A DNA stretch of 64,000 nt from Halapricum salinum (GTDB lineage: Archaea > Halobacteriota > Halobacteria > Halobacteriales > Haloarculaceae). The DNA lies in the NCBI RefSeq assembly GCF_004799665.1, contig NZ_CP031310.1, positions 124,001 through 188,000 of the forward strand, read 5' to 3'. This document shows, piece after piece, positions 8,676-57,594 of this stretch. The notes under the pieces are model-generated. The model saw only the letters and a list, made by a program, of their open reading frames with translations. It searched no databases and was not told the origin of the DNA. Each line of letters opens with the position of its first letter. Within the stretch, counting starts at the first letter, position 1. Made by a program: the position numbers and the translations under genes.

Positions 8676-9149
8676 ATGAGTCACCACGACGAGCGCACGT
8701 TCGTAATGGCGAAACCGGACGCCGTCCAGCGCGGGCTGATCGGCGAAATTATCCAGCGGCTCGAAGAGCGCGGCCTGAAGCTGGTCGGCGCGAAGTTCAT
8801 GCAGATCGACGAGGAACTCGCCCACGAGCACTACGGCGAGCACGAGGGCAAGCCCTTCTTCGAGGGCCTGGTCGAGTTCATCACTTCCGGCCCCGTGATG
8901 GCGATGGTCTGGGAAGGCGCAGACGCCACCCGCCAGGTCCGCCAGATGATGGGCGAGACCGACCCGGCCGACGCCCAGCCCGGCACCATCCGCGGTGACC
9001 TCGGACTGGATCTGGGCCACAACGTGATCCACGGGTCCGACCACGAGGACGAGGGCGCAAACGAGCGCGAGATCGACCTGTTCTTCGACGACGAGGAACT
9101 CGTCGACTACGAGCGCGCCGACGCCGTCTGGGTCTACGAAGACGAATAA
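8676..9149 (+). CDS. ndk: Nucleoside diphosphate kinase
   Basis: 157 residues. It transfers the gamma phosphate from ATP to other NDPs. The catalytic His is H119 in NVIHGSD. Other conserved parts are [17 protein letters not shown], the [11 protein letters not shown] strand and the PGTIRGDLG loop. It is the last gene of the L7Ae-S28e-L24e-Ndk operon. The stop codon at 9147-9149 is followed without a gap by the CCACTTTTTCC that begins repeat element A, so the T run there may also end transcription. Confidence 0.97.
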
Positions 9150-9290
9150 CCACTTTTTCCGCCTCGGGTTTCCTCGCGAGCGCCACGACGCTCGCTGCGG
9201 GAACCCTGCGGCGGAAAAACTTGGGGAAAAAGGCCGGAATCGCCTTATTGGGCGATTCCGGGGAAACGGCGACGGAGTCGCCGTATGCTA
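9150..9290 (+). repeat. Structured intergenic element A, copy 1 (candidate ncRNA)
   Basis: Begins CCACTTTTTCC right after the ndk stop and ends TATGCTA. Helices: P1 TTTTTCCGCC 9154-9163 with GGCGGAAAAA 9210-9219; P2 outer GGGTTTCC 9166-9173 with GGGAACCC 9199-9206; P2 inner GCGAGCG 9176-9182 with CGCTCGC 9189-9195; P3 CCGGAATCGCC 9234-9244 with GGCGATTCCGG 9251-9261; P4 CGGCGAC 9267-9273 with GTCGCCG 9277-9283. Single-stranded parts shared with copies at 42138 and 43289 are TC/TGC inside P2, C-TTGGGGAAAAA after P1, GGAAA between P3 and P4, and TATGCTA at the end. Stem sequences differ between copies but pairing is kept. I do not recognise the family; transcription of the element is not shown. 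Confidence 0.7.
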
Positions 9291-9297
9291 GTGATTC

Positions 9298-9563
9298 GGC
9301 CTGCCCTTCCCCGAGTCGGTTCGGCCGCGGCGATCGCCGCGGCACTCACTCCCGGCCACAGCGGTGCGGTCAGGAAGCCAGCGCGCGGGTTTCATCCCGC
9401 GTGCCGGGGAGGAAAGAGGGATAGTCGCGCGCACTCCGCGCGCGACTACAGAAAGCGCTGGCGTTGCCTCTATACCCCGTCGGCAATCGCCGACGGTGGT
9501 CGTCCGGGCCTGGTGGACATGAAAAGGGCGAGCAGCCGACGCCAGTCGGCTGCGAGGGCTTTC
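9298..9563 (+). repeat. Structured intergenic element B, copy 1 (candidate ncRNA)
   Basis: Fills the gap between element A and the arginase stop. Core motifs shared with the copy at 57265-57594 (minus): GGCCTGCCCTTCCCCG, CACTCACTCCCGGCCAC, GCGGTCAGGAAGC, CCGGGGAGGA, GGCCTGGTGGACATGAA, AAGGGCGA and GAGGGCTTTC. Long-range pairs: GCCCTT 9303-9308 with AAGGGC 9524-9529, and CTTCCCCG with CGGGGAGG. Variable hairpins: a 20-base palindrome at 9324-9343; CGCGGG 9384-9389 with CCCGCG 9396-9401; AGTCGCGCGC 9423-9432 with GCGCGCGACT 9438-9447; CCGTCGGC 9477-9484 with GCCGACGG 9489-9496; GCAGCCGAC 9532-9540 with GTCGGCTGC 9545-9553. No open frame is credible. It resembles neither SRP nor RNase P RNA convincingly. 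Confidence 0.65.
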
Positions 9564-9570
9564 AGGGCTA

Positions 9571-10482
9571 TCAGAGGACGCGCTTGCCGAGCGCGCTCGC
9601 GGCCATCTCGACGGCCAGTTCCGCGGTGCGGTTGTGCTCGTCCAGAATAGGATTGACCTCGACGAGTTCCATGCTGGTCAGCGGGACCTCCGGGGCGGCG
9701 ACCCGTTCCATCGCGGCGTGAGCCTCGCGATAGGAGACGCCGCCGCGGACGGGTGTACCGACGCCGGGGGCCTCGGAGGGATCGAGCCAGTCCAGGTCGA
9801 GACTGACGTGGAGGTGGTCGACGCCGTCGGTCGCGACCGCGATGGCGGATTCGACGACGTCGGTGATCCCGCGGTGGTCGATGTCAGTCATGGTGAACGT
9901 GGTCACGTCGCTGTCGACGATGGCGGGCCGTTCGGTGGGATCGACGTCACGCAGACCGACGAGGACGACGTTCTCTTCGGGGACAGTCGGTGCGGTCGCC
10001 CACTCGCTGGCGGCGAACGGGCCCGTGCCGAGGATCGCGGCCAGTGGCATCCCGTGAACGTTGCCGCTCGGGGAAGTCTCGGGCGTGTTGAAGTCGCCGT
10101 GGGCGTCGAACCAGATCAGCCCCGTCTCGCGGGTTCGAGCGACACCGCCGACGGTCCCGATCGCGATGGAGTGGTCGCCGCCGAGCACCAGCGGGAACGA
10201 TCCCCGTCCCAGAACGTCGCCGACGCGTGTCGCCAGGCGCGTGCAGACGTCGCGTGTCTCCCCGAGGTACTTCGCCCGACCGCCGGCCGGTTCCTCGGCG
10301 TCGGGGTCACGTTCTTCGGGACGGGGGACCCGCAGGTCGCCGCCGTCGACACAGTCGAATCCGAGGCTCTCGAGTTCGTCGGCCAATCCGGCATAGCGGA
10401 TCGCCGAGGGGCCCATGTCGACACCGCGGCGGTCGGCTCCGAGGTCCATCGGCACGCCGAGGACGGTGATCGGTCGGTCCAT
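9571..10482 (-). CDS. rocF: Arginase (ureohydrolase family)
   Basis: 303 residues from ATG 10482. It hydrolyses arginine to ornithine and urea. The binuclear manganese site is complete: GGDHSIA, WFDAHGDFNTPETS with the arginase-type NVHGMPLA, and SLDLDWLDPSEAPG; the C-terminal SMELVEVNPILD supplies the conserved Glu. Length and motifs favour arginase over agmatinase or formiminoglutamase, though haloarchaea have several ureohydrolases and substrate should be treated as likely rather than certain. The gene stands alone between element B and a divergent histidine kinase. Confidence 0.88.
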   Translation of the reverse strand: MDRPITVLGVPMDLGADRRGVDMGPSAIRYAGLADELESLGFDCVDGGDLRVPRPEERDPDAEEPAGGRAKYLGETRDVCTRLATRVGDVLGRGSFPLVLGGDHSIAIGTVGGVARTRETGLIWFDAHGDFNTPETSPSGNVHGMPLAAILGTGPFAASEWATAPTVPEENVVLVGLRDVDPTERPAIVDSDVTTFTMTDIDHRGITDVVESAIAVATDGVDHLHVSLDLDWLDPSEAPGVGTPVRGGVSYREAHAAMERVAAPEVPLTSMELVEVNPILDEHNRTAELAVEMAASALGKRVL

Positions 10483-41679: not shown

Positions 41680-42135
41680 ATGGCAGGTCCAGCGTACCAA
41701 CTCCCCGGGCCACTCGGGATCCTCGACTCGGTCATCGGCGCGACAGCGGTGATCGAGTACATCCTGCTCGGGTTGTTGCTCCTGAACATCGTCACGCGGA
41801 TCGTCGCACACCGCCGCCACCTCGCGGAAGCCGACGAGGGCGTCGAATCGCTGTCGAGACACCCACTGCACGTCGCCTCGAACGTTCTGCTGTTGCTGGC
41901 GTCGTTCTACTACACGACGCTGCACCAGCACGCCGGCATCGTCGCGACCTCGCTCGTCGTCGGGATCTTCATCACCGACTTCTTCGAGTTCGAAGCTCGC
42001 AACGTCGAACTCCGTCGTGAGGTCCCACTCGACCGCCCCAAAGGCGCGATCGCCGCCTCGCTACTGGCGTTCCTCTACATCGGCTATCTCAGCGCTTTCC
42101 AGTACGTCGCCCCGATCTGGAACGCGGTCGTATAG
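41680..42135 (+). CDS. Four-helix membrane protein, conserved in haloarchaea
   Basis: 151 residues. ATG 41680 lies 27 bases after the centre of a TATA-like CATCTTAATGG, giving a leaderless message. Hydrophobic helices: VIEYILLGLLLLNIVTRIV, ASNVLLLLASFYYTTLHQ, GIVATSLVVGIFITDFFEF and AIAASLLAFLYIGYLSAFQ. The loop RHLAEADEGVESLSRHPLH has several His and acidic residues. No known function. Element A copy 2 begins three bases after its stop. Confidence 0.72.
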   Translation: MAGPAYQLPGPLGILDSVIGATAVIEYILLGLLLLNIVTRIVAHRRHLAEADEGVESLSRHPLHVASNVLLLLASFYYTTLHQHAGIVATSLVVGIFITDFFEFEARNVELRREVPLDRPKGAIAASLLAFLYIGYLSAFQYVAPIWNAVV

Positions 42136-42137
42136 CA

Positions 42138-42338
42138 CCACTTTTTCCTGCACGGGGTTTCCTCGGTCGCCTCCGGCGACCTGCGGGAACAGCGTGGCGG
42201 CTTCGCCGCCACGTCATACGGTTGCGGGCCGCTGGCCCGCAACCCGCGCAAAAACGTGGGGAAAAACACGCTTCACGCTCGACGCTCCGCGTCTCGCGTG
42301 AAGTGAAACGGCGCTCGCTTCACTCGCGCCGTATGCTA
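42138..42338 (+). repeat. Structured intergenic element A, copy 2, with extra hairpin domain (candidate ncRNA)
   Basis: Begins CCACTTTTTCC and ends TATGCTA like copy 1. P1: TGCACGGG 42149-42156 with CCCGCGCA 42243-42250 (one mismatch), extended by TTTTT with AAAA. P2: GTTTCC 42157-42162 with GGGAAC 42185-42190, then TC/TGC, then GGTCGCC 42165-42171 with GGCGACC 42175-42181; the inner stem differs from the other copies but still pairs. P3: CTTCACGC 42271-42278 with GCGTGAAG 42296-42303. P4: CGGCGC 42309-42314 with GCGCCG 42326-42331. Between P2 and the 3' strand of P1 are two additional hairpins, GTGGCGGC with GCCGCCAC and GGTTGCGGGCC with GGCCCGCAACC, absent from the other copies. Confidence 0.7.
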
Positions 42339-42364
42339 CACTGGCCCGCAACGAGAGAGACAAA

Positions 42365-43000: not shown

Positions 43001-43156
43001 TTCGTACCAGCAACACCTACTCCTGTAGAAAAATATTTTGTGGAGATATCGCCTGCACTGAAAGCGCTTGACATCCGAGTGTAGAAGAGGATTCCTCCGC
43101 GGGTCGCATCCGTTCCCCGCTCCGGTACGAGGTTCTTCGCTTCGCTCAGAACCTCG
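43001..43156. other. Intergenic stretch with hairpin abutting the hmgB fragment
   Basis: AT-rich at the start (GAAAAATATTTTGTGG, probably promoter of the membrane-protein gene on the minus strand). At 43128-43136 CGAGGTTCT pairs with AGAACCTCG at 43148-43156, a perfect nine-base stem whose last base directly precedes the duplicated hmgB end. The loop reads TCGCTTCGCTC. No gene. Confidence 0.5.
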
Positions 43157-43282
43157 CTACTCCACGTAGGTGTACTTCCGCTCGCCCATCCGCCCCCAGC
43201 CGTCGAAGACGAACTCGCCTTCCGGCGTCGTGCAGGCGTCGATATCTGTGGATTCGTCGTGGTTGTGCACGTCGTGGATCTG
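43157..43282 (-). pseudogene. Duplicated 3' end of hmgB (126 bases)
   Basis: Copies hmgB bases 43432-43557 with only four mismatches in 126, in the same orientation. It encodes the last 41 residues of HMG-CoA synthase (IHDVHNHDESTDIDACTTPE, ending in GERKYTYVE and a stop) with one substitution Tyr to Cys. It has no start of its own; on the 5' side the frame runs into element A. Similarity stops sharply at 43282, six bases before the element, and at 43156. It is either left over from a tandem gene duplication that was then mostly deleted, or a by-product of insertion of the element. Confidence 0.85.
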
Positions 43283-43288
43283 CTGCGA

Positions 43289-43430
43289 CCACTTTTTCCT
43301 TCGTCGGGTTTCCTCGCGAGCCTTCGGCTCGCTGCGGGAACCTCTCCTCGGAAAAACATGGGGAAAAACGACCTGCTGGCTCCCGATAGTCGCCAGCAGT
43401 GAAACGCCTCGCAACGCTCGGCGTACGCCA
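43289..43430 (+). repeat. Structured intergenic element A, copy 3 (candidate ncRNA)
   Basis: Lies between the duplicated hmgB end and hmgB itself, on the opposite strand to hmgB. P1: TTTTTCC 43293-43299 with GGAAAAA. P2: GGGTTTCC 43306-43313 with GGGAACC 43336-43342, then TC/TGC, then GCGAGCC 43316-43322 with GGCTCGC 43326-43332. The conserved AAAAACATGGGGAAAAA follows. P3: CTGCTGGC 43373-43380 with GCCAGCAG 43392-43399, then TGAAA, then P4 CGCC 43405-43408 with GGCG 43420-43423, and TACGCCA in the place of TATGCTA. P3 and the P2 apex differ from the other two copies yet still pair. Confidence 0.7.
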
Positions 43431-43431
43431 G

Positions 43432-44766
43432 CTACTCCACGTACGTGTACTTCCGCTCGCCCATTCGGCCCCAGCCGTCGAAGACGAACTCGCCTTCCGG
43501 CGTCGTGTAGGCGTCGATATCTGTGGATTCGTCGTGGTTGTGCACGTCGTGGATCTGTTCGTACTGCTCCCAGGAGATGTCGTAGCGCTCGACCAGCTGG
43601 TCGTCGATGTTCAGCGCCGCGATCTCATCTTCCCAGCCGGGCTGGACGGTCTCGGCGTGGATCTCCGCCTGAGCACCCGACCCGTACGAACACACGAGGA
43701 GCTGCTCGTTATCGAGGTCGATCCCGTTCTCCCGAGCGTGTTTCAGCCCGCCGATCCGGGCGACGTGGACCGAGCCGGTGTACCAGTTGCCCACCTGCGC
43801 GGAGACCTCGAGAGTCGGCTCGATCGTCCGCGAGTACCACTCACTGTAAAGGTCGGTTTCGGTCAGCTTGTCCGTGTACTCCTTCAGGGCGTCACGATAC
43901 GCCTCCTCGTCGTCGAACGCCTCGGGGCGGGGCTGGCGGCCGATCTCCTCGGCCAGTTCCTCCTCGACGTCGGTGTCGCGAGCGACGTGGCGATACCCCA
44001 GGGCGGCGGCCTTCCGAACCATCCCCGGGAACGGCGTGTGGAACGGGACGAGTGCGAAGTCGTCCGGGTGGGTCGGCGTCTGCATCTCGAAGTCCTCCAA
44101 CGCTTCGCGCATCCGCATGAGATAGACCTGCATCGAGCGCTTGCCGTCGACGCTCGGGAACTGCTGATTGGGTTTGAGGAAATCCGTCTCGTCGGCGCTG
44201 CCGAAGCCCTGCTCCGGCTCGATCACGGTCAGGTCGGGATCTTCGTCGATGAGCATGGCGACTGCACCCGCGCCCTGCGTGGCCTCGCCGGGGTCGCCAC
44301 GCTCGTAGAGTGCGGTGTCGGTCGCGATCACCAGCGCCGCGCGGCCGCGATTCTTGCCCGCGGCGATCCAGTTGACGGCGTCGTCGATGCTCTGGGTGCC
44401 CGCGATACAGGCGAACTTCCGCTCGCCCTTGTTCGCGTGGTGGAAGTCGCCGTCGTAGACCTGCTCCAGACAGCCGGCGACGTACGTCGAGACCGGCTTG
44501 GAGTGGTCGAACGCGCTCTCGGTGGCCACGTCGATCCGGCCGATGTCCTCCGGCGCGAGGCCCTTGCGGTCCATCAGGCGCTTGGCCGCGTTGGCGGCCA
44601 TCGTCACGATGTCCTCGTAGGCGTCCGGGAACGAGGAAGCGTGCAGTCCGAGCCCCTTCGTGTACTTGGCGGGGTCGTCGTCTTTCTCGTCGGCGAACGT
44701 CTCCGCGAGATCGAGCTTGAGTTTGCCGCTCCGGAACTCGGCTGCGTCGATGCCTACGTCTGTCAT
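43432..44766 (-). CDS. hmgB: Hydroxymethylglutaryl-CoA synthase
   Basis: 444 residues from ATG 44766, preceded by GAGGTGAAC. It condenses acetoacetyl-CoA with acetyl-CoA for the mevalonate route to archaeal lipids. Thiolase fold with catalytic Cys in KFACIAGTQSIDDAVNW, Glu in VATESAFDHSKP and His in LVPFHTPFPGMVRKAA. NWYTGSVHVARIGGL and SYGSGAQAEI are further family motifs. It is of normal length and intact. Its last 126 bases are duplicated just downstream, beyond element A copy 3. Confidence 0.95.
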   Translation of the reverse strand: MTDVGIDAAEFRSGKLKLDLAETFADEKDDDPAKYTKGLGLHASSFPDAYEDIVTMAANAAKRLMDRKGLAPEDIGRIDVATESAFDHSKPVSTYVAGCLEQVYDGDFHHANKGERKFACIAGTQSIDDAVNWIAAGKNRGRAALVIATDTALYERGDPGEATQGAGAVAMLIDEDPDLTVIEPEQGFGSADETDFLKPNQQFPSVDGKRSMQVYLMRMREALEDFEMQTPTHPDDFALVPFHTPFPGMVRKAAALGYRHVARDTDVEEELAEEIGRQPRPEAFDDEEAYRDALKEYTDKLTETDLYSEWYSRTIEPTLEVSAQVGNWYTGSVHVARIGGLKHARENGIDLDNEQLLVCSYGSGAQAEIHAETVQPGWEDEIAALNIDDQLVERYDISWEQYEQIHDVHNHDESTDIDAYTTPEGEFVFDGWGRMGERKYTYVE

Positions 44767-44871
44767 GTTCACCTCATTCTCCGCGGAACTGGGTTAAGTG
44801 TTTGTCGACTACTGTTACGACGATCGTCGAAATTCAGTGGGGTTTTTGTCCGACGGGCGTCCCACACCAGT

Positions 44872-57264: not shown

Positions 57265-57594
57265 GAAAGCCCTCACCACGTCTTCGCGCGGCCGGCGGCC
57301 GCGCGAATGGTCCGAGAGAGCTTCCTCTCTCGCTACTCGCGGTCGCTGAGCAAGATATCTTCGCTCACTTCGTTCGCTCAGATAGAGCTTGCTCAGGCGA
57401 CTCACTTTCAGCGCGACCGCGGGTTCGCCCTTTCAGTCCTCCAGGGCCGCGACCGCAACCGCAGTATCGTAGCCCCACTCCTCCCCGGCCGCGCGCAGTC
57501 CTGCGCGCGGCACGCTTCCTGACCGCTCCGCGGTGGCCGGGAGCGAGTGCCACGACAATAGTCGTGGTCGAAGCGACCCGGGGAAGGGCAGGCC
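57265..57594 (-). repeat. Structured intergenic element B, copy 2 (candidate ncRNA)
   Basis: Read on the minus strand it starts GGCCTGCCCTTCCCCGGG at 57594 and ends GAGGGCTTTC at 57265. Shared with copy 1: GTCG-TTCG, CACTC-CTCCCGGCCAC, GCGGTCAGGAAGC, CCGGGGAGGA, CC-TGG-GGAC-TGAAAGGGCGA. The apical stems differ but pair: CCACGAC with GTCGTGG replaces the copy 1 palindrome, and CCGCGCGCA with TGCGCGCGG replaces CGCGGG/CCCGCG. The last domain is expanded to about 150 bases by further hairpins (GCGGTCGC with GCGACCGC enclosing CTGAGCAAG with CTTGCTCAG, GAGAGAG with CTCTCTC, CGCGCGG with CCGCGCG). No credible reading frame. Confidence 0.65.

Follow-up and report, generated by a model that had tools for sequence, protein, structure and literature searches.

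The stretch of DNA analysed here, called the window throughout, comprises 64,000 nucleotides of the Halapricum salinum genome (contig NZ_CP031310.1, positions 124,001 to 188,000) and contains three copies of a structured DNA repeat of 140-210 bases, which we term element A. Copy 1 (9150-9290, + strand) is of type 1, scores 124 bits against our covariance model and lies in sense orientation directly 3' of the stop codon of a nucleoside diphosphate kinase-like gene (8676-9149, +; the name was read from the sequence). Copy 2 (42138-42341, +), also of type 1, follows a gene at 41680-42135 (+) that ends 2 nt before it, and carries two extra hairpin modules at approximately 42190-42250. Copy 3 (43289-43433, +) is of type 2 and is antisense to a gene for HMG-CoA synthase (43432-44772, - strand), its right end adjoining the stop codon of that gene. 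A first-pass annotation of the window had identified these three copies, and all are present where it placed them, copy 2 extending to 42341 and copy 3 to 43433; the terminal TATGCTA that it took to be shared by all is missing from copy 3, which ends GTACGCC instead. The window contains exactly three occurrences of CCACTTTTTCC, against 0.30 matches expected when up to one mismatch is allowed.

The left part of element A consists of about four variable bases followed by CCA-C-TTTTT-C, which forms the 5' strand of helix P1, and then of helix P2 (GGTTTCC.TCG...TGC.GGGAACC), which has a variable apex and is followed in some copies by one or two extra hairpins; in copy 2 there are two, preceding the second strand of P1. 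The 3' strand of P1 (GAAAAAC-N-TGG) is joined by the linker GG-AAAAA to the right part, which comprises hairpin P3, the sequence GAAAC, hairpin P4 and the end GTATGCT. Other complementary triplets also occur in place of the CCA/TGG end of P1. Judged by the repeats that flank some copies, element A begins approximately 4 nt upstream of CCAC and ends just past GTATGCT. In copy 1, the forward T5 tract (T5C) within the 5' strand of P1 lies at 9154-9158 (+), two reverse-strand T5C tracts occupy 9215-9231 (-; 5' ends at 9219 and 9231), P3 spans 9234-9261 and is followed on the - strand by CCTTTTTCCC in a terminator-like arrangement, and P4 with the right end GTATGCT spans 9267-9289 (+). The predicted fold has an energy of -83 kcal/mol in copy 1 (z -8.5) and -55 kcal/mol in copy 3 (z -2.9).

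From the three window copies it had been proposed that four helices differ in sequence while retaining their pairing, and this is borne out on a larger scale. A strict pattern applied to the whole H. salinum genome (G000) recovered 10 copies, on which we built the covariance model used for family searches. Among these, 94% of cells pair, compared with 39-52% when partners are slid; both partners are changed in 30 cells, compared with 8.9 after shuffling, and all five covariation measures exceed the shuffles. Across 114 distinct copies, in an alignment that had been fitted to the structure, 94.8% of cells pair (74% in shuffles) and double changes affect 612 cells (170 in shuffles) and 33 of 35 pairs. 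Because of that fitting, we also ran an in-house test resembling R-scape, a G-test with APC in which substitutions were replaced on a FastTree tree. Against this tree-based null, 14 of 10,296 column pairs were significant at E <=0.05, 12 of them annotated pairs and two inside P4, and each helix contains at least one significant pair. By this in-house test, of the kind that the first-pass annotation had proposed, the covariation goes beyond phylogeny, and both the shuffle comparison and the tree-based null support its view that selection or replication acts through the structure.

A genome of these salt-loving archaea may hold as many as about 50 copies of element A. The covariance model finds approximately 50 in H. 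salinum itself and matches in 31 of 39 relatives; a class-wide scan, in which scoring was confined to the best candidates of each genome so that copy numbers are lower bounds, identified it in 101 of 145 Halobacteria genomes and 43 of 58 genera. An exact pattern matched at 27 places, every one in Halobacteria, in genera that include Haloarcula, Halomicroarcula, Halorientalis, Salinibaculum, Halonotius, Halohasta, Halococcus, Haloplanus and Halovenus. Some genomes of two families (f4 and f7) lack the element. The initial impression that it matches no known RNA family agrees with Rfam release 15, in which no family matched above the gathering threshold and the best matches at a permissive threshold fell far below it, and we found no description of it in the literature searched, coverage of which was partial.

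The position of element A relative to genes, which were called with a simple composition script and named from the sequence, is precise. A sense stop codon lies within 60 nt to the left of 57 of 130 distinct copies, and in 47 of the 57 the distance from stop codon to CCAC is 0-4 nt, where uniform placement in the gap would give 6.3 such cases. The 3' ends of tRNA genes are used as well, CCAC lying 1-2 nt downstream in five of six cases called by ARAGORN. In antisense copies it is the opposite end of the element that adjoins, or lies near, a stop codon. The flanks of the first 90 or so copies are convergent genes in 36 cases and divergent genes in four. It had been said that all copies stand directly after the 3' end of a gene; this is true of copies 1 and 2, which are in sense orientation and begin 0-2 nt past the stop codon, and not of copy 3, which is antisense to its gene and adjoins the HMG-CoA synthase stop codon with its other end.

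Several of these positions are shared between genomes. Within Halapricum, common positions include L074 (four genomes), L073 (three), L022 (four, with tandem arrays of element A and fragment) and L036 (two); MenB has element A in four Halapricum genomes, G003 retaining a decayed remnant there; EF-2 has it in two genomes. Of 30 thermosome genes inspected, identified by search with PF00118, 12 have element A 1-3 nt past the stop codon, and these come from 10 of 24 genomes of the family. The thermosome copies of G000, G002 and G018 are mutual best matches across genera and form an orthologous set, and those of G019, G040, G009 and G039 are likewise each other's best matches; the second thermosome copy of G000, by comparison, and its EF-2 copy resemble one another. 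Best matches across genera, combined with resemblance within a genome, indicate that copies are inherited and also that they spread, or exchange sequence, within a genome. Identical copies in G017 were considered as a case of recent transposition and rejected: element A there is carried within a MITE-like repeat (ends GTTCAGTA/TACTGAAC), and it is this carrier that gives the near-identical copies at L090, L091, L094-L096 and L099.

A further structural feature is the duplication of gene ends. Copy 3, the plainest case within the window, sits between two 97% identical copies of the last 126 bp or so of HMG-CoA synthase: a duplicated 3'-end fragment on its left (43157-43282, -; 124 bp aligned, four differences) and the matching 126 bp at the real 3' end of the gene on its right (43432-43557, -). 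Direct repeats of this kind, in which the last 20-127 bp of the gene are copied on the far side of element A with an inner edge about 4 nt before CCAC at most loci, were found at 21 of 130 distinct copies overall, and flank 11 of 23 antisense-only copies, whereas the 49 sense-only copies have none (Fisher P 4e-7). The HMG-CoA synthase gene of G001 has its own element A and an identical repeat of about 45 bp, while the site in the sister genome G002 is empty (L108 versus L109); we claim no gain here, because deletion between identical repeats leaves the same empty site. Where fragment and gene differ, 35 of 38 differences fall at third codon positions (L022, L027, L074, L088 and others), a pattern resembling synonymous change that a dead fragment decaying neutrally would not produce. 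We consequently reject simple target-site duplication followed by decay as a sufficient explanation; the bias requires that one copy was replaced by a homologous allele, or that there was exchange or conversion between the copies. At the HisH locus (L141 versus L142), a scar consisting of the P4 hairpin lies directly 3' of the stop codon, element A having apparently been lost through recombination between the repeats.

Our essential contention, to which we give a probability of a little under 60%, is that element A is a haloarchaeal element of gene ends, structured and bidirectional, which terminates transcription or signals the 3' end and has come to occupy many genes by spreading. Among the roles first suggested for it (small RNA, 3'-end processing or termination element, or hairpin-type non-autonomous mobile element), the second fits best, given T5 on both strands, placement at gene ends and depletion between divergent genes; we infer that it terminates transcription and has been retained for that reason. 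In P1, invariance reaches 97-100% for the inner four T's and A's and falls to 75% at the outer T and 88% at the outer A, although adjacent pairs vary freely; conservation of the second, unpaired A run is mostly 94-98%. Base pairing by itself would not call for A-T pairs, and T tracts needed on both DNA strands would. In a Haloferax volcanii reporter, T5C terminated transcription with 95% efficiency and a hairpin with 59% (PMC7237163). We favour a two-way terminator on account of the T5 conservation on both strands, these reporter data and the combination of P3 with a T tract. The equal counts of G.T and A.C mispairs given below and the retention at thermosome and MenB genes also fit this reading. 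Seen from one side, the stop codon of a gene gives way within a few bases to CCAC-TTTTT; seen from the other, hairpins P4 and P3 come first after the stop codon, with two T5 tracts beyond them. The runs of T5 and A5 would themselves pair as P1, and P2-P4 would be kept palindromic, such that transcripts from either strand could fold. A coding-strand T5 (T5C) tract is found just 3' of the gene, and three of the seven TTTTTC sites on the + strand of the window, and five of the 13 on the - strand, are inside the three copies.

Several observations fit this less comfortably. The P3 hairpin and following tract on the - strand of copy 1 are the sole terminator-like match in a 2.1 kb region, a number no higher than the 1.0 expected by chance. 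Known archaeal terminators, moreover, do not have their T5 tied up in a helix, as the forward T5 is here in P1. The absence of the element from some genomes of families f4 and f7 also weighs against the reading. Finally, selection for termination alone explains neither the distance of 0-4 nt from stop codons nor the restriction of gene-end duplication to antisense copies. The T-tract (T5C) and hairpin terminators of Haloferax volcanii (PMC7237163) resemble element A in the T5C tract, the hairpins and the position at gene ends, but they differ from what is here a dispersed family with a conserved architecture, T tracts on both strands and a paired T5/A5, for which termination is presumed.

More tentatively, and with the odds somewhat against us, we suggest that element A is a transposase-free family that inserts at gene ends, with precision at stop codons and tRNA ends and no sequence target, and that duplicates 3' ends in antisense copies only. 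In doing so it would provide haloarchaea with two-way terminators that can be carried from gene to gene, and it would evolve through copies exchanging sequence with one another. Neither its precision at stop codons nor the antisense-only duplication matches any mobile-element type that we tested, and both would point to an undescribed process. Bacterial REP/BIME elements share with element A the form of a hairpin repeat and a location at 3' ends and between genes that converge. They differ in that the sequence of element A is unrelated, it has a four-helix architecture and it lies 4 nt or less from stop codons; no RAYT-like partner was found for it.

It is also possible, though we think it unlikely, that element A is mainly a selfish, non-autonomous mobile repeat, its hairpins serving single-stranded DNA transposition, which is tolerated only at gene ends and resembles a terminator secondarily. 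There are some 50 dispersed copies with precise ends, direct repeats of 24-127 bp and tandem arrays of element and fragment; related subtypes stand at different genes within one genome; and the locus filled in G001 is empty in G002, at least one such counterpart thus being available. The original suggestion of mobility is upheld to this extent, but no transposase belonging to it came to light, and a large number of copies are old, staying at orthologous gene ends. There are no inverted termini, and the repeats vary between 20 and 127 bp, where MITEs would have short repeats of constant length. Reverse transcriptase (RVT_1), sought as the mark of a retroelement, is present in none of 39 genomes. 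The Y1 transposase of IS200-type elements was not found in the copy-rich genomes G000, G007, G009, G018 and G026, and is present in some genomes without element A. Viral contigs, plasmids and phages, each searched with one exact pattern or one blastn query, gave no match at that sensitivity.

Among haloarchaeal elements, the PATEs and IS200/IS605-type elements of Haloquadratum (PMC3119063) are similarly short, with palindromes near their ends, no inverted termini and no transposase gene. Unlike PATEs, which do not duplicate their target, antisense copies of element A have repeats of 24-127 bp, and there is no link to a Y1 transposase. SMR-A and SMR-B, also of Haloquadratum, are about 110 bp long, transposase-free and mobilised by unexplained means (PMC3119063), but they are bounded by inverted terminal repeats and go into other mobile elements, where element A has no such termini and targets gene ends.

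We consider it improbable that element A acts in cis as an mRNA 3' structure (a stabiliser or processing signal) or is a small RNA, functioning as + strand RNA only. The stable covarying fold and the location right 3' of stop codons would suit such a role, as would a conserved U.G pair in P2, seen in 62 of 98 copies. Outside this pair, however, G.T occurs 27 times and A.C 53 times, the latter mostly at one edge pair of P1, and when the two P1 edge pairs are also omitted both are equally rare at 23. An RNA made from one strand should prefer G.U, and an element with both strands folding should not; no preference for G.U on the transcribed strand was seen, and the near-absence of G.T, with A.C equally rare, is as expected if both strands need the fold. 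Element A is moreover used in both orientations and no promoter evidence was found, and the suggestion of a small RNA drew no positive evidence, the G.U pattern arguing against a classical RNA from one strand.

A last reading, which seems to us very improbable, takes element A as the mark of attachment sites for integrative elements or for cassettes resembling those of integrons, the gene's 3' end being restored and a fragment left behind. In keeping with it are the targeting of gene and tRNA ends, the repeated gene ends beside the element, the tandem arrays, the scars left where deletion has joined two repeats and the excess of third-position differences. Against it, the repeat is a different one at each locus, so that element A carries no fixed attP; no repeat accompanies the sense copies at protein genes; the unit measures just 150 bp or so; and no recombinase was noticed beside it.

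The formation of 3' ends in archaea is poorly understood, and the literature searched holds no dispersed terminator family for haloarchaea; element A provides a covariance model and hundreds of positions. If the bidirectional terminator reading is true, it would also provide compact two-way terminators for haloarchaeal genetics.

Other repeats lie close to element A in the window. A separate family, B/C (GGCCTGCCCTTCCCCG ... AAAGGGCGA/GAGGGCTTTC), adjoins the region of copy 1 at 9298-9590 (+); it combines GGCCTGCCCTTCCCCG with a symmetric pair, TCGCCCTTTCAATCC.CCAGG and CCTGG.GGATTGAAAGGGCGA, has about 32 copies in the genome and is also found around window position 57579 (G000:C1:181579-181594, minus strand). 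Element A is sometimes inserted at the edge of B/C, with a repeat of 20-25 bp. A third structured repeat (CGAG-hairpin-CTCG-AACCGGAGCGGGGAACGG...) lies at approximately 43085-43160, and at L107, L110, L111, L278 and L270; it too begins directly 3' of stop codons, and in related genomes it is found in tandem at the end of HMG-CoA synthase.
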